64,000 nt of DNA from Aureispira anguillae. Its GTDB lineage: Bacteria > Bacteroidota > Bacteroidia > Chitinophagales > Saprospiraceae. Both the position numbers and the translations under genes were made by a program. Positions 36,395 through 42,822 of this stretch are shown one piece after another. The stretch spans positions 2,201,501 to 2,265,500 of the forward strand of contig NZ_AP026867.1 of assembly GCF_026000115.1 (NCBI RefSeq). Direction: 5' to 3'. The notes below the pieces were generated by a model. It was not told the DNA's origin. It did no database searches and saw nothing but the letters and a program-made list of their open reading frames with translations. Numbering within the stretch: position 1 is the stretch's first letter; every line of letters starts with the position of its first letter.

Positions 36395-37825
36395 ATGAAA
36401 AATTCTAAGCTAATTGGGATCTTAAAAACCTTAGAAACGAAAGAACTTACTCGGTTTAGAGAATACGTCCATTCGCCTTTTTTTAACAAGCATAAAATTG
36501 TTAATAAACTCTGTGATTACATTTTAAAATTTGCGCCTAAATTTGATAGTGAAAAACTGAACAAAAAAAACATTTATAAAGTATTGTTTCCTAACACTAT
36601 TTATAATGAAACGCATATCTATACCCACACCTCCAATTTAACACTTTTGTTGGTAGATTATCTCGCTGTTACAGGTTTCCAGAAGAATCCGTTGCAAATG
36701 AAATTATATGCGCTGAAAGCATTGAGAAACAAAGGCTTGTCAAAGCAATTTCATCAAACGGCTAAACAATATCAGAACTTATTGGATAAAAGAAGGCTTA
36801 AAGATCGAGATTATCATTTCTATCAGGCTGAATTATACCATGAATTTGACCAAATCAACCCCATTCGCAACCAGGATCAAAATATTCAATTGAGGGATAC
36901 AGAATCGGAAATTGTGTTTTTGATTGACAAAATGCAAATTGCTTGCGATATGATTAATAGAAATAGCATCATTGGATCCAATTATGAAGCAAGTGGAATT
37001 GATTTTGTCTTAGAATGGCTAGAAACAGATCAATCTTATTATCTAAATTTCCCAGAACTACGGATAAATTACACCATCTACAAATTAATTAAAACGGAAG
37101 AAAAGCAATATTATGATGATCTGAGGTTGTTTCTTGCCGATAAAACGCATTGGTATTCCAAATCCAAAATCAAAGTAATTTATGACTATTTGACCAATCA
37201 CTGTATAAAAAAAATGAATACAGGCGATAAAGAATATCTAAGGGAGTTTTTTGAATTGCACCGTTTTTTATTGAGCGAAAAAATTCTACTACTAGAGGAC
37301 AATAGCTTGGATGAATGGGATTACAAAAACATCGTAACTGTTGGTGCTCGTTTGGAGGAATTCGATTGGGTCAAATCCTTTATTTATAAGTATAAAAACT
37401 TCGTAAAGTCTAGTTCAAGGGAAAATGTATTCAATTACAACCTAGCTTATTATTACTACAGCAAGAAAAATTATAGCAAAGCGCTTGGTTTATTGCACCA
37501 CGTAGAATTTACAGACGCATCTTATTATATCGGAGCCAAGATTATTCAATTAAAATGCTATTATACCTTGGGAGAACTGGAAGCTTCTTTGTCCTTAATT
37601 GCAACATTTAAAAATTATATACAAAGAAGCAAAGTCTTATCTGATTACAAAAAAGCAATGAATCAAAATATGCTGAGAATGGCAAAAAAGATTATTGTAC
37701 TCGAATCTAAAAAAATAGCCCTATCTAAAAAGGAATTGGATCAACAGAAAACAAAATTGCAGGATCAGATCAAAAATCTATCTCCAATTGCTAATGCAGA
37801 TTGGTTAGTTGATATTTTGTCTTAA
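36395..37825 (+). CDS. Unrecognised helical protein, possibly TPR-like (476 aa)
   Basis: No signal peptide and no motif I can name. The protein is helical and tyrosine/lysine-rich. The second half has TPR-like helix pairs (NYNLAYYYYSKKNYSKALGLLHHVEF, AKIIQLKCYYTLGELEASLSLI). A C-terminal coiled coil (KKELDQQKTKLQDQIKNL) closes it. Proteins of this plan are frequent and uncharacterised in this group of bacteria. It ends 99 bp before the threonine leader peptide and is probably separate from that operon. Confidence 0.75.
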   Translation: MKNSKLIGILKTLETKELTRFREYVHSPFFNKHKIVNKLCDYILKFAPKFDSEKLNKKNIYKVLFPNTIYNETHIYTHTSNLTLLLVDYLAVTGFQKNPLQMKLYALKALRNKGLSKQFHQTAKQYQNLLDKRRLKDRDYHFYQAELYHEFDQINPIRNQDQNIQLRDTESEIVFLIDKMQIACDMINRNSIIGSNYEASGIDFVLEWLETDQSYYLNFPELRINYTIYKLIKTEEKQYYDDLRLFLADKTHWYSKSKIKVIYDYLTNHCIKKMNTGDKEYLREFFELHRFLLSEKILLLEDNSLDEWDYKNIVTVGARLEEFDWVKSFIYKYKNFVKSSSRENVFNYNLAYYYYSKKNYSKALGLLHHVEFTDASYYIGAKIIQLKCYYTLGELEASLSLIATFKNYIQRSKVLSDYKKAMNQNMLRMAKKIIVLESKKIALSKKELDQQKTKLQDQIKNLSPIANADWLVDILS

Positions 37826-37924
37826 AGAGTTTACCGCTCTATCGGCTTGATTATTAAAAAAATATTCTTTGATAAATCGATTTTTTTTTTGCGAAGCTAA
37901 AAAATATTTCCTAGCTTTATAGTA

Positions 37925-38029
37925 ATGCAACAACAATCCACACATATTACCTCTTCTACAACATCATTGGAAAATGATGCGTTTGTTGTTGGCACATCTA
38001 CAACTATCTTCACTACAACTACCCCCTAG
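37925..38029 (+). CDS. Threonine-operon leader peptide (34 aa)
   Basis: A 34-codon frame from ATG 37925 to TAG 38027, too short for normal gene calls. It encodes MQQQSTHITSSTTSLENDAF and then VVGTSTTIFTTTTP. Eleven of 34 residues are threonine, with TTIFTTTT just before the stop, and two are isoleucine. It stands directly before the aspartokinase-homoserine dehydrogenase gene, followed by a hairpin and T run. This is what a ribosome-stalling leader for threonine (and isoleucine) attenuation looks like, as in the Escherichia coli thr leader. Translation is inferred from this composition and position. Confidence 0.75.
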   Translation: MQQQSTHITSSTTSLENDAFVVGTSTTIFTTTTP

Positions 38030-38110
38030 GGGGTATATATGAACATATCAGGCACTTTGTGCATTCTTCCCATTCGTGAATAAAAATTCACTCATCCATT
38101 TTTTTTTTAT
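38020..38110 (+). promoter_or_regulatory. Attenuator of the thr operon
   Basis: A perfect 16-nt palindrome TACCCCCTAGGGGGTA (38020-38035) contains the leader stop codon. It is followed by hairpin GTGAAT-AAAA-ATTCAC (38076-38091) and ten T residues (38099-38108). GGCACA near 37991 in the leader could also pair with TGTGC near 38058. Switching between such pairings as the ribosome stalls on threonine codons is the standard attenuation model. The GTG at 38076 lies in the hairpin and is not the thrA start. The terminator stem is short and AT-rich, so the exact fold is uncertain. Confidence 0.6.
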
Positions 38111-38132: not shown

Positions 38133-40583
38133 ATGCTAGTCATAAAATTTGGAGGTAGTAGTGTTGCCTCATCTCAAAATATCAAGAAGGTAAAGGTCGT
38201 TTTGAGCCAAAAAAAACAGCCCTTTTTTTTAGTTGTTTCTGCGTTTTCAGGAACAACAGATTTATTACAAAATGCTGCAAAACAAGCTTTAGGGGGGACA
38301 GATTCTTACCTCAACACCTTAGATGCTCTAAAAAATAGACACTTTTTAATTGCGAAAGAACTCATTCTACTAGAAAACCAAGCCGACACGCTGATTTATA
38401 TCCAAAAGCAGTTCAACCAATTAACTGCGCTTTGCGAGGGAGTATTCGCCCTTGGGGAACTAACAGATAAAACCCTTGCTCGGATTATGAGCTTTGGAGA
38501 ACTGTTTTCCTCCTTTATTATTGGGCATTATCTTTGTCAAGAAGCGCTTAATGTTGAATGGATTAATAGCTTGGACTATATCAAAGCAGAAGGAAATTAT
38601 TTGGAAGGGGAACTTAATAGAACGGAAACGGCTTCGTTGATTAAAGATTTGGACAAAACTCGGAATTATATCGCTCCTGGATTTATTGCTTCAAACTCCA
38701 AGGGGGAAATTGTTTTGTTGGGAAGGGGAGGCTCAGATTATAGTGCTGCTATATTCGCAGGAAATCTGAATGTAAACGGCCTAGAAATATGGAGTGATGT
38801 AGATGGCATGTTAGATGCAAATCCCAAATTGGTTAAATCTGCCAGAACCATCAAAGAACTGAGCTATAAAGAAGCTTTTGAGCTTTCGCATTTTGGTGCA
38901 AAGGTCTTGTATGCCCCAACGATCCGCCCAGTGATGAATAAAGGAATTCCCATCCAGTTAAAAAATACATTCTCCCCTGAAAAAAAAGGTACTTATATCG
39001 GCAATAAATTAAAACAAGAACCTCAGAATAGTGTAAAAGGGATTTCCTCCATAGCGGGTCTTAGTCTTATAACCGTTGCGGGAATTGGGTTGGCAGGAAT
39101 AAAGGGAATGGCAAAAAAAGTATTTGCTACTTTAGAGCGTGCATCGGTTAATGTTGTCTTGATTACCCAATGTTGTTCAGAGCAAAATATTTGTATTGGA
39201 GTTGTTGACAAAGACAAAAACCAAGCAGTGACAGCATTAAATGAAGCTTTTGATTCAGAGATAAGAAAGTTGTTGGTTGATAAAATTATTGCCAAATCCA
39301 ATTATTCCGTTATTGCACTTGTTGGGGATAATATGAAAATGAAAGTTGGCTTATCAGGGCAACTATTTGGAGCATTAGGGCAAAATGGAATTAACATAAT
39401 TGCTATTGCTCAAGGAGCCTCTGAGCGAAATATTTCAGTTGTTATTGACACCAAAGACGAGAAAAAGGCAACGAATGTTTTACACGAATGTTTTTTTAAT
39501 ACAGTAAGTAAAAAAGTGCACCTTTTTGTAGCAGGGCTTGGTAATGTAGGCAAGCAATTTTTCAAAATTATAGCTGAACAAAAGGCTACTTTATTAGCAG
39601 AAAACAATCTAGATCTTAGGTTGGTTGGTATTGCGAATAGCAAACGGATGGTATTGGACGAGTTGGGAATTGATTGGGATCAAGGGGGAGTTGCTCTTGC
39701 GCAAGGTACTGAGGTCGGTCATTTTTCAGATTTTGTAGAGGGTATGAAAAAAATGAATCTCAGGAATAGTATTTTTATTGACAACACTGCATCCGAGGAG
39801 GTTAGTGCCTCTTATTTAGAAATTTTGAAGGAATCTATTTCTGTTATTACCTGCAATAAAATTGCCTGTAGTTCCAGTTATGAGCATTACAAAGGCTTAA
39901 AAGATACCGCTAAGAAATTTAATTGTTTTTTCAATTACGAAACAACAGTTGGGGCGGCTCTGCCTGTCATCAAAACAATTCAAGATTTGAGGTTAAGTGG
40001 AGATAAAATTAACCGTATTCAAGCCGTTCTTTCTGGCAGTTTAAATTTTATCTTTAATCATTATAATTCATCGAAGAATACCTTTGTTGAAATTGTAAAA
40101 CAAGCCAAAGAGGAAGGCTATACAGAACCCAATCCATTGATCGATTTGAGTGGTATAGACGTTATGAGAAAAATATTGATCTTAGCTAGAGAAGCAGGTT
40201 ATTCTTTAGAAATGGATGAAGTGGTTGCGAATGCGTTCATTCCAGAAAATTGCTTGCACGCTCAAAATGCAACAGCGCTTTTTGAAGCAATAGAACAATC
40301 CGAATCTCATTTTAAACAATTGTATGAGGACGCTAGCTCAACCGATAGCAAGCTCAAGGTTATTGCGACTTTCGAAAAGGGTAAGGCTTGGGTTGGTCTC
40401 GAAAAGGTTCAATCTAGCAGTCCATTTTTTCATCTAGAAGGCAAAGACAACATTGTTTCGATCCAATCTAGACGGTATCCTACAGAACCACTGGTTATAA
40501 AGGGAGCAGGAGCTGGCGCTGAGCTAACAGCAGCAGGTGTTTTTGCAGATCTAATGCTTATTATAAATAAATCGATTAATTAA
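38133..40583 (+). CDS. thrA: Bifunctional aspartokinase / homoserine dehydrogenase
   Basis: 816 aa from ATG 38133 (MLVIKFGGSSVAS), the normal start of aspartokinases; Escherichia coli ThrA has 820. An earlier in-frame GTG at 38076 is rejected because it would translate the attenuator T run. The aspartokinase domain is about 1-290 (KFGGSSV; GRGGSDYSAA), ACT regulatory domains about 300-455, and homoserine dehydrogenase about 460-816, with NAD(P)-binding VAGLGNVGKQFF, CNKIA and SGSLNFIF. It catalyses the first and third steps from aspartate to threonine in the cytoplasm, and the ACT pair normally gives feedback inhibition by threonine. It is the first gene of thrABC, controlled by the leader at 37925-38110, and thrB begins 5 bp downstream. 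Confidence 0.96.
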   Translation: MLVIKFGGSSVASSQNIKKVKVVLSQKKQPFFLVVSAFSGTTDLLQNAAKQALGGTDSYLNTLDALKNRHFLIAKELILLENQADTLIYIQKQFNQLTALCEGVFALGELTDKTLARIMSFGELFSSFIIGHYLCQEALNVEWINSLDYIKAEGNYLEGELNRTETASLIKDLDKTRNYIAPGFIASNSKGEIVLLGRGGSDYSAAIFAGNLNVNGLEIWSDVDGMLDANPKLVKSARTIKELSYKEAFELSHFGAKVLYAPTIRPVMNKGIPIQLKNTFSPEKKGTYIGNKLKQEPQNSVKGISSIAGLSLITVAGIGLAGIKGMAKKVFATLERASVNVVLITQCCSEQNICIGVVDKDKNQAVTALNEAFDSEIRKLLVDKIIAKSNYSVIALVGDNMKMKVGLSGQLFGALGQNGINIIAIAQGASERNISVVIDTKDEKKATNVLHECFFNTVSKKVHLFVAGLGNVGKQFFKIIAEQKATLLAENNLDLRLVGIANSKRMVLDELGIDWDQGGVALAQGTEVGHFSDFVEGMKKMNLRNSIFIDNTASEEVSASYLEILKESISVITCNKIACSSSYEHYKGLKDTAKKFNCFFNYETTVGAALPVIKTIQDLRLSGDKINRIQAVLSGSLNFIFNHYNSSKNTFVEIVKQAKEEGYTEPNPLIDLSGIDVMRKILILAREAGYSLEMDEVVANAFIPENCLHAQNATALFEAIEQSESHFKQLYEDASSTDSKLKVIATFEKGKAWVGLEKVQSSSPFFHLEGKDNIVSIQSRRYPTEPLVIKGAGAGAELTAAGVFADLMLIINKSIN

Positions 40584-40588
40584 AAAAC

Positions 40589-41527
40589 ATGATGAAAAAA
40601 ATTAGTGCATTTGCCCCTGCAACCATTGCCAATTTTTCGGTAGGATTTGATGTACTGGGCTTAGCTTTAGATTCTATTGGAGACACAGTAGAAGTGGTTT
40701 TAAATAACGAGACTGAAAATAAAATTAAAGAGATTGTAGGAGGTAGTGACTTGCCCACCAATATTGAAAAAAATTGTTGTTCTGTAGTCATTAGAAAAAT
40801 GCAAGAACGACTCGATGATTTTCGGGGTGTTGATATTCGAATCAAAAAAGGATTTAAATCAGGGAGCGGCTTAGGATCTAGTAGTGCTAGTAGTGCGGCT
40901 GCCGCCTATGCTTATAATGAGTTAATAGGAAGCCCTTTTAGCGAACAAGAGTTGGTTGCGTTTGCAGCAGAAGGAGAGCGAGTTGCCTGCGGAGCTGCTC
41001 ACGCCGATAATGTTGCACCTGCCATAATGGGAGGCTTGGTCTTGGTGCGTGCTCATGATCCTATAGATGTCATTTCTTTACCGATACCAAAAAACCTTTA
41101 TGCAATACTTCTTTTTCCTGACGTAAAAATCAATACTGCCGACTCAAGAGAGGTAATGAATAAAAACATTTCGCTGGACAAAGCTTGCAGCCAATGGGCA
41201 AATTTAGGAGCTTTTATTAGCAGTTTATATCAAAATGACCTCGAATTATTGTCCAAATCCATGCAGGATTTTGTTGCGGAGCCTGTTCGATCCTTATTTA
41301 TCCCGAAATTCCAAGCACTAAAAAAAGCGGCATTAGAAAATAAGGCGCTAGGTTTTGGAATTTCTGGATCTGGTCCCTCTGTTTTTGCCCTAGCATCAAG
41401 CAAAGCTTCTGCTCAAACGATCCAAAAGGCTTTACTAGACCAGTTTGAAGGTAGTTCTGTTAAGACCATGAGTTTCATAGAATCTCTAGATGGCAATCAA
41501 GGAGCTAGAATTATTGAATCATTTTAA
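40589..41527 (+). CDS. thrB: Homoserine kinase
   Basis: 312 aa, the usual length. It is a GHMP-family kinase: APATIANFSVGFDVLG at the N-terminus and the ATP-binding motif GSGLGSSSASSAAAAYA at about residues 91-107, with FGISGSGPSVFAL in the C-terminal GHMP motif. It phosphorylates homoserine for ThrC. It starts 5 bp after thrA and ends 11 bp before thrC, so the three form one operon. Confidence 0.96.
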   Translation: MMKKISAFAPATIANFSVGFDVLGLALDSIGDTVEVVLNNETENKIKEIVGGSDLPTNIEKNCCSVVIRKMQERLDDFRGVDIRIKKGFKSGSGLGSSSASSAAAAYAYNELIGSPFSEQELVAFAAEGERVACGAAHADNVAPAIMGGLVLVRAHDPIDVISLPIPKNLYAILLFPDVKINTADSREVMNKNISLDKACSQWANLGAFISSLYQNDLELLSKSMQDFVAEPVRSLFIPKFQALKKAALENKALGFGISGSGPSVFALASSKASAQTIQKALLDQFEGSSVKTMSFIESLDGNQGARIIESF

Positions 41528-41538
41528 GACAAAAAAAC

Positions 41539-42822
41539 ATGAATTATATTAGCACAAAAGACAAAAATGAACTCGTTTCTTTTGAAGAAGCGGTCGTTAA
41601 AGGTCTGGCTCTGAACAAAGCCTTATTCATGCCTGAGCGCATTCCAGTATTGCCTAGACATTTTTGGGAAGAAATAGCAAGGTATACAGATCATGAGATC
41701 GCTTTCGAAGCACTTTTTCCCTTTGTTAAAGACTCGATTGATGAACCTTCTTTAAAGAAAATAATTGCAGAAACCATATCCTTTCCAACACCTACTGTTT
41801 TCGTAGAAGAGAATATTTATTCTTTAGAGTTATTCCATGGACCAACAAAAGCATTCAAGGATGTTGGTGCCCGTTTTATGTCGAGGTGCCTAGCTCATTT
41901 TGTGGGCAAGAGTGATAAAAAAGTAACCATTTTGGTCGCAACCTCAGGGGATACGGGAAGTGCTGTTGCAAATGGATTTTATAATGTTACTGGGGTTGAT
42001 GTTGTTATCTTGTTTCCCAAAGGCAAAGTTAGCCCATATCAGGAATTTCAAATGACCTCTTTAGGGGGAAATATTAGGGCGGTTGAGGTTGACGGTGTTT
42101 TTGATGATTGCCAAGCTCTAGTCAAGGAAGCTTTTAGCGACATTGAATTAAACCAGCGATTGAATCTGAGTTCGGCAAATTCTATTAATATTGCTCGGTT
42201 ATTGCCCCAAATGCTGTATTATTTCTTCGCTTATAAAGAACTGAAAAAAAAGGATAAGAAAATTGTTTTTTCCGTTCCGAGTGGAAACTTTGGGAACTTA
42301 ACGGCAGGGATTATTGCTAAAAAAATGGGTTTGCCTGTGCAGTTTATCGCTGCAACCAATTCTAACGACACGTTTAGGCATTATATGGAAACGGGGGAGT
42401 ACCTCCCTAAGGCATCTGTAAGCACCTATTCTAATGCAATGGACGTGGGAGCACCAAGTAATTTTGAGCGATTGATGCATCTCTACGACTCTGATTTAAA
42501 GCAAATTCGTAGAGATATACAAGCCGAATCTATTGATGATGCAGCTACCCTAAAAGAAATTGAAGAGGTCTATAAAAAGTCTGCTTATTTGCTAGATCCC
42601 CATGGCGCAGTGGGGATAAAATCTCTTCGTCATAGATTAAAAGAAGGACAGATTGGAGTGTTTTTAGAAACGGCACATCCTAAGAAATTTGAAGAGGTGG
42701 TTCAAAAGGCAATTCCTAATTACCCTAAAAATGAAGTGGATCTAGGCGCTTGTAAAAAAGAGTGTATTGGGAAGGAGTATATAGCGTTTAAAACGCTGTT
42801 ACAGGAGCGAAATAACAAATAA
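41539..42822 (+). CDS. thrC: Threonine synthase
   Basis: 427 aa, typical of the shorter ThrC class. The PLP lysine lies in FHGPTKAFKDVGARF (about residues 100-114), and ATSGDTGSA is the phosphate-binding loop. The PLP enzyme converts O-phosphohomoserine to threonine. It is the last gene of the operon, followed by a terminator. The start matches the family N-terminus (MNYISTKDK). Confidence 0.96.
   Translation: MNYISTKDKNELVSFEEAVVKGLALNKALFMPERIPVLPRHFWEEIARYTDHEIAFEALFPFVKDSIDEPSLKKIIAETISFPTPTVFVEENIYSLELFHGPTKAFKDVGARFMSRCLAHFVGKSDKKVTILVATSGDTGSAVANGFYNVTGVDVVILFPKGKVSPYQEFQMTSLGGNIRAVEVDGVFDDCQALVKEAFSDIELNQRLNLSSANSINIARLLPQMLYYFFAYKELKKKDKKIVFSVPSGNFGNLTAGIIAKKMGLPVQFIAATNSNDTFRHYMETGEYLPKASVSTYSNAMDVGAPSNFERLMHLYDSDLKQIRRDIQAESIDDAATLKEIEEVYKKSAYLLDPHGAVGIKSLRHRLKEGQIGVFLETAHPKKFEEVVQKAIPNYPKNEVDLGACKKECIGKEYIAFKTLLQERNNK

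Follow-up and report, generated by a model that had tools for sequence, protein, structure and literature searches.

The thrABC operon of Aureispira anguillae is preceded by a short threonine-rich reading frame whose stop codon lies in a hairpin (P1), and elements of the same type stand before thrA in many other Bacteroidota. Enteric bacteria provide the textbook examples of ribosome-mediated attenuation; here, we consider it fairly probable that the element is a ribosome-mediated attenuator which senses charged tRNA-Thr, with a smaller share for isoleucine, and controls thrABC. Comparison between genomes establishes the leader, its recurrence, P1, a downstream motif (YATAT) at fixed spacing from P1 and the lack of a clear excess of canonical terminators. 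On the same grounds, threonine sensing by ribosome stalling is likely.

Leader frame, putative promoter and operon

Coordinates refer to the window, that is, the whole 64,000-nucleotide stretch of A. anguillae DNA that was analysed. The leader and the operon comprise the following features:

37889-37919, plus strand: promoter-like sequence consisting of TTG (37889-37891), 20 nt and TAGCTTTA (37912-37919), read from the sequence
37925-38029, plus strand: leader peptide frame of 34 codons with 11 Thr and 2 Ile, from the translation of the frame; comparable leaders occur elsewhere
37994-38023, plus strand: control codons of the leader frame
38133-40583, plus strand: thrA, bifunctional aspartate kinase/homoserine dehydrogenase I (NF006959, 918 bits against a cut-off of 726)
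40589-41527, plus strand: thrB, homoserine kinase (NF002288 and TIGR00191, above their cut-offs)
41539-42822, plus strand: thrC, threonine synthase (TIGR00260, above its cut-off)

All three genes exceed curated NCBIfam cut-offs, which identifies a genuine thrABC operon downstream of the leader. The start codon of thrA is the ATG at 38133 and the leader stop begins 106 nt upstream of thrA; the leader is thus placed directly 5′ of the matching biosynthetic operon, as is characteristic of ribosome-mediated attenuators. The frame itself has the other hallmark of this class, being short and carrying clustered codons for the product of the operon. It translates as MQQQSTHITSSTTSLENDAFVVGTSTTIFTTTTP followed by the stop. 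This frame ranks first by Thr count and by Thr fraction among the 1,328 ORFs from 12 to 60 codons long on the two strands of the window, and when all six frames are considered, 12-codon stretches with seven Thr are confined to its last codons. Both the translation and this window-wide ranking bear out the first-pass annotation, which had pointed to a 34-codon frame with 11 Thr and two Ile codons before thrABC. Equally sound was its remark on a perfect palindrome of 16 nt enclosing the stop codon: TAG (38027-38029) is part of TACCCCCTAGGGGGTA (38020-38035), the only perfect palindrome of at least 16 nt in the 64-kb window. When folded, the leader region exceeds its shuffles in stability by a modest margin (z −2.2).

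When the final 15 codons of 95 related leaders are counted, Thr (583) and Ile (209) are the top residues, as expected for leaders that had been selected for Thr/Ile. All four Thr codons are used there (ACA 187, ACC 181, ACT 164, ACG 51), and it is therefore the amino acid that is conserved and not one DNA word.

The promoter-like octamer TAGCTTTA has one mismatch to TAnnTTTG, which we take to be the Bacteroidota −7 box; it lies 5 nt upstream of the leader ATG, with TTG 20 nt further 5′. An exact TAnnTTTG box is absent before the leader of the window. Across loci, 47 of 92 have the exact box no more than 70 nt 5′ of the leader ATG, compared with 62 of 1671 control windows, and its distance to the ATG ranges from 2 to 33 nt. 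The transcript would probably start a few bases 5′ of the leader ATG. Further upstream, the window encodes a 476-aa protein (36395-37825) without an NCBIfam match, which belongs to an expanded family, with 3 to 20 matches per genome in eight genomes of the same genus.

The stop-codon hairpin and its surroundings

Four elements were delineated within the leader and between the leader and thrA:

37928-37991, plus strand: P0, CAACAACAA/TTGTTGTTG around CATCATT/AATGATG, just 5′ of the Thr codons, from the minimum-energy fold
38020-38035, plus strand: P1, the stop-codon hairpin TACCCC/GGGGTA, supported by a stem at the matching place in other leaders and by covariation
38044-38048, plus strand: CATAT motif, 14 nt downstream of the position where the P1 3′ arm begins, from the YATAT spacing across loci
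38052-38062, plus strand: P2, a small hairpin GCAC/GTGC, with a matching hairpin of changed pairs in loci L102, L104 and L105 and in f104, a family of another class

P1 spans the last leader codons and the stop. At the stop codon, 95 of 117 leader loci, which had been picked by Thr count alone, have a stem of 5 bp or more with three G-C pairs; the 22 misses include six loci of f60, a group with a different type of leader (see below), and several chance frames. Applied upstream, the same test was positive in 3/117 loci at −120, 1/117 at −90 and 17/117 at −60, the last position corresponding to the P0 region; downstream it was positive in 13/112 loci at +40 and 10/86 at +60, and on base shuffles in 63 of 2,340. 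The stems themselves vary, e.g. ACCCC/GGGGT, ACGGG/CCCGT, ACCCTC/GAGGGT and GATCCGC/GCGGATT. So does the register of the stop: of 106 leaders, 70 have its first base in the loop, 15 have it in the 3′ arm, 20 beyond the hairpin and one in the 5′ arm. P1 is kept despite this shift and is therefore not a by-product of one coding register; its persistence across stop positions is the strongest argument for P1.

MAFFT alignments (A3 and A4) displaced the stems against each other, and for this reason pairs were counted in Python on hairpin-anchored rows without a covariance model. Standard pairs occupy 92.7% of the cells of the six inner P1 pairs (96 rows), compared with a mean of 73.6% (maximum 76.6%) when columns were re-dealt and 30-60% when they were slid, and both sides change in all six pairs, a weak measure alone because re-dealt columns reach a mean of 4.5 of 6; the stems had been selected for pairing, which biases these pairing and covariation figures upward. 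Between 10 and 11 doubtful or duplicate loci were removed before the pairing, long-range pairing, YATAT/codon and terminator counts.

Sequences on both sides of P1 contribute further structure. The 90 nt 5′ of P1 are more stable than shuffles (mean z −1.6, with 47 of 95 loci below −1.5; z only −1.2 in the window itself), and the arms of P0 covary by eye in Flavobacterium. On the 3′ side, of the 82 loci having YATAT, 68 have it 14-16 nt beyond the point where the P1 3′ arm starts; it is absent in 13 of 95. Its distances from the stop codon are bimodal and those from P1 fixed, indicating that YATAT is positioned by P1 and not by the stop. The nearest leader-bearing relatives of the window (L102, L104 and L105) have GATATA or CATAG in its place. 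The combination of a hairpin and YATAT is by itself not rarer than chance, with two occurrences on both strands of the window against a shuffle mean of 0.98 and a maximum of 4. P2 takes the forms GGCA/TGCC, TAGGA/TCCTA, GCAGG/CCTGC and GCAC/GTGC in f104, L102-L105 and the window, a series obtained by comparison and without a shuffled control.

A strict pattern combining P1 and the motif gave eight matches in 20 genomes, seven of them just 5′ of thrA and the eighth inside a 748-aa open frame of genome G159; the reversed control gave one match. No match was obtained in 13 of the 20 genomes, including that of the window, because the motif after CATAT varies. The idea that P1 elements also precede other operons was dropped, since this strict search of 20 genomes returned only thrA sites and the one place in a long ORF. 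Two further candidate pairings were abandoned as well. On inspection, CATAT pairs with the thrA start in some loci but not in Flavobacterium, and pairing of the P1 5′ arm with a downstream GGG shows no covariation, because GGGC stays constant where P1 becomes GATCCGC-like.

Distribution across Bacteroidota

The first-pass annotation had proposed that conservation of the leader in relatives would be informative. Recurrence holds for more distant Bacteroidia and for family f104, but fails in the nearest genomes: none of 33 loci from genomes of the same genus, family and order (the 29 best ThrA loci, L004-L032, and four more of the same search, L098-L101) has a leader element before thrA. Four of L004-L032 passed the loose Thr+Ile threshold, yet lack a Thr run. 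A ThrA match of some kind exists in 59 of the 60 genomes searched, the window's own included, often to a single kinase domain only. Full-length fused ThrA was not found in four genomes of the same genus, G001 and G006, which are drafts of 92% and 88% completeness, and G003 and G008, both 99% complete; judged from these assemblies, the thrABC operon has a patchy distribution in the genus. In three leaderless loci of the same genus (L004, L005 and L006), thrA stands close behind a gene whose product, judged by eye, is a small cysteine-rich protein, presumably DksA/TraR-like.

Beyond the nearest genomes, the following counts are biased frequencies, because loci were ranked by similarity to the ThrA of the window: in a class-wide sample (295 genomes searched), 24 of 63 usable loci have a Thr/Ile-rich frame with an end hairpin before thrA, as do 63 of 80 named loci and, from the window's order (248 genomes searched), 18 of 27 additional loci; all usable entries together, the window included, have it in 106 of 204, a few of these being doubtful or near-duplicates. 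Loci tested later, which are included in no other count, have the element in 9 of 10 (L231-L239, L244) and 6 of 6 (L282-L287) cases. L001, a copy of the window, was left out throughout; L052 and L097, which have no usable thrA start, were dropped as well. Named carriers are Flavobacterium hercynium, Kordia algicida, Tenacibaculum ovolyticum, Polaribacter sp. BM10, Niastella populi, Chitinophaga cymbidii and Solitalea agri. Outside the class, the element is present in 9 of 21 loci of f104 and in none of 20 loci of other families. In one genome (G091, locus L088), thrA is preceded by a short frame ending SHVHVHHDP, which looks like a histidine and not a threonine leader peptide.

In a FastTree phylogeny of ThrA (158 rows), the window groups with the leaderless L004 and L005 (support 95), and the leader-bearing L102, L104 and L105 form part of the neighbouring branch. 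With leaderless sisters and leader-bearing neighbours, the leader must come and go in this part of the tree. The 18 changes of leader state counted on the tree are an overcount, as some loci missed by the threshold, such as L112, show a visible P1 and CATAT. The lack of a leader in the nearest kin is what would be expected of a chance Thr-rich frame without function, but frames of the same type, with the hairpin and in the same position, occur in dozens of species of two classes, and the promoter box is enriched before the leader ATG. We regard a chance frame as highly improbable.

Possible read-out of the leader and known systems

The hairpin and run of ten T that had been annotated as the terminator form a single feature:

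38076-38108, plus strand: P3 hairpin GTGAAT/ATTCAC (38076-38091), 7 nt and T10 (38099-38108)

If P3 and T10 terminated transcription and a stalled ribosome freed an antiterminator, attenuation would be of the classical kind. The pair stands at the expected place, and only 2 of 200 shuffles of the 43-nt region of P3 fold as stably. The only two ten-T runs on the plus strand of the window (37881 and 38099) flank the leader, compared with about 0.7 expected by chance per strand, a rough estimate from base composition. However, the P3 stem has six base pairs, only two of them G-C (−3.9 to −5 kcal/mol), it ends seven bases short of T10, and neither of two terminator scans reported it. A search for a strong terminator adjoining T10 with gaps of 0-2 nt found none, and neither inspection nor pairing scores revealed an antiterminator partner for P3 in the window. 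The intrinsic terminator between leader and first gene that defines the classical form was therefore not found here.

The same picture emerges from the comparison of loci. Canonical intrinsic terminators of −5 kcal/mol or better occur in 9 of 96 P1-type leaders against 24 of 480 shuffles, which is no clear excess; at −8 or better there is a slight excess (3/96 against 4/480). None of nine f104 leaders has one at −5 or better (shuffles 1/45). With its 7-nt gap, two silent scans and no clear terminator excess in P1-type leaders, the reading of the hairpin and ten T as a terminator is not supported. Antitermination through long-range pairing between leader and downstream sequence likewise showed no general excess (mean z −0.43; 15 of 95 loci below −1.5), although such pairing is strong in L102, L188 and L191 (z about −2.4 to −2.6). 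Neither terminator counts nor long-range pairing thus give general support to a classical two-state switch, and we consider classical attenuation through P3 and T10 unlikely.

The textbook form does occur in the same class, in the nine f60 leaders (L064, L066-L070, L074, L075 and L083), which also place a Thr/Ile leader before thrA. Unlike P1-type leaders, they have no P1 and all nine have a strong intrinsic terminator (−5 or better; shuffles 6/45), with stems GCCTTCCTCC...GAGGAAGGC or GCGTCCCGA...TCGGGACGC and a T run; this count used all nine loci with the region start set by a simple motif, whereas the scan for terminators with an adjacent T run left out L068, in which no frame was found. 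In several f60 loci a complementary GGAGGAAG-like stretch is seen by eye at the leader end, where GGAGGAAG could act as an antiterminator. Given the f60 terminators and the lack of a clear excess of them in P1-type leaders, the phylum has at least two designs of thr leader.

Without early termination, the leader ribosome might instead change access to the thrA mRNA or its decay. Such translational control or control of mRNA stability would fit the absence of a canonical terminator and would give a role to hairpins P1 and P2, which need explaining; however, the sequence just 5′ of thrA is A/T-rich and stays single-stranded in the predicted fold, and conserved structure over the thrA start was not seen in the alignments made. 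We think this quite improbable.

For attenuation through P1, we infer leader translation, a pause, the direction of regulation and the final step as follows. The leader ribosome would either stall on the Thr run, which abuts and enters P1, or reach the stop in or just behind P1, and its position would decide whether P1 forms behind RNA polymerase. P1 together with YATAT at a fixed distance is most likely a hairpin-dependent pause or decision site. With ample threonine, most transcripts would end before thrA; under shortage, the stalled ribosome would hold P1 open and the polymerase would read through. As to the final step, Rho or another factor would be favoured over a U-tract terminator. The RNA after P1 is G-poor, C exceeding G in 88 of 95 loci compared with 55 of 97 loci without the element, for which the 90 nt immediately preceding thrA were used, a stretch that may be partly coding; G-poor RNA would suit Rho. 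It is a tentative and rather doubtful extension that Bacteroidota of at least two classes use the stop-codon hairpin and the fixed-spaced YATAT as a ribosome-opened switch for polymerase pausing and termination that dispenses with a U-tract terminator, and that the C-rich, G-poor RNA could load Rho.

Hairpin-stabilised pause sites are known from the enteric his and trp leaders, in which about 11 nt separate the hairpin from a fixed site downstream. The geometry of P1 and YATAT resembles them in placing a leader hairpin near such a site, but P1 spans the stop region, the motif is not the enteric pause sequence and pausing here is a prediction. The nearest functional counterpart is the thr leader of Enterobacteria, which we take to be represented by Rfam Thr_leader and E. 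coli thrL. It shares with the P1 type a Thr/Ile-rich leader peptide directly before thrABC and presumed sensing of charged tRNA-Thr/Ile. The P1 type differs in having the stop codon in or beside a conserved hairpin, no canonical terminator and no Rfam match: neither the window nor seven related loci matched any Rfam family, including the Thr_leader covariance model. The closest catalogued relative in logic is Bacteroid-trp (RF01692), which belongs to the same phylum and has a leader peptide with repeated codons for the product amino acid, but its codons are for Trp, its fold is another one and it ends in a strong hairpin with a T run. RF01692 matches 6 of 149 genomes of the class, and neither the window nor its genome. 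The entry is listed by Weinberg et al. 2010 (PMC2864571).

As for threonine attenuation in Bacteroidota with a different RNA fold, which had been anticipated from the window alone, the Thr leader before thrABC, its recurrence and the lack of an Rfam match agree with it, and the proposed terminator does not. We found no earlier description of a Bacteroidota thr leader in the open-access literature that was searched, though the surveys of the Lyubetsky group (2007, 2010) may list such leaders. Clues to leader-peptide attenuation before amino-acid operons are given for F. psychrophilum (PMC9723704), where thrA is not among the genes named in the section on 5′ cis-regulatory RNAs, and leader-like sORFs are mentioned for B. 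thetaiotaomicron (PMC7366714); Naville and Gautheret 2010 (PMC2965389) is cited alongside the known systems. On our best reading, and as far as this literature search shows, the P1-type thr leader would be a previously undescribed form of ribosome-mediated threonine attenuation. If so, Bacteroidota would have solved the same sensing task separately, by a recurrent thr leader with a hairpin at the stop codon and without a U-tract terminator, and this leader would offer a compact, testable model for ribosome-polymerase coupling in this phylum.
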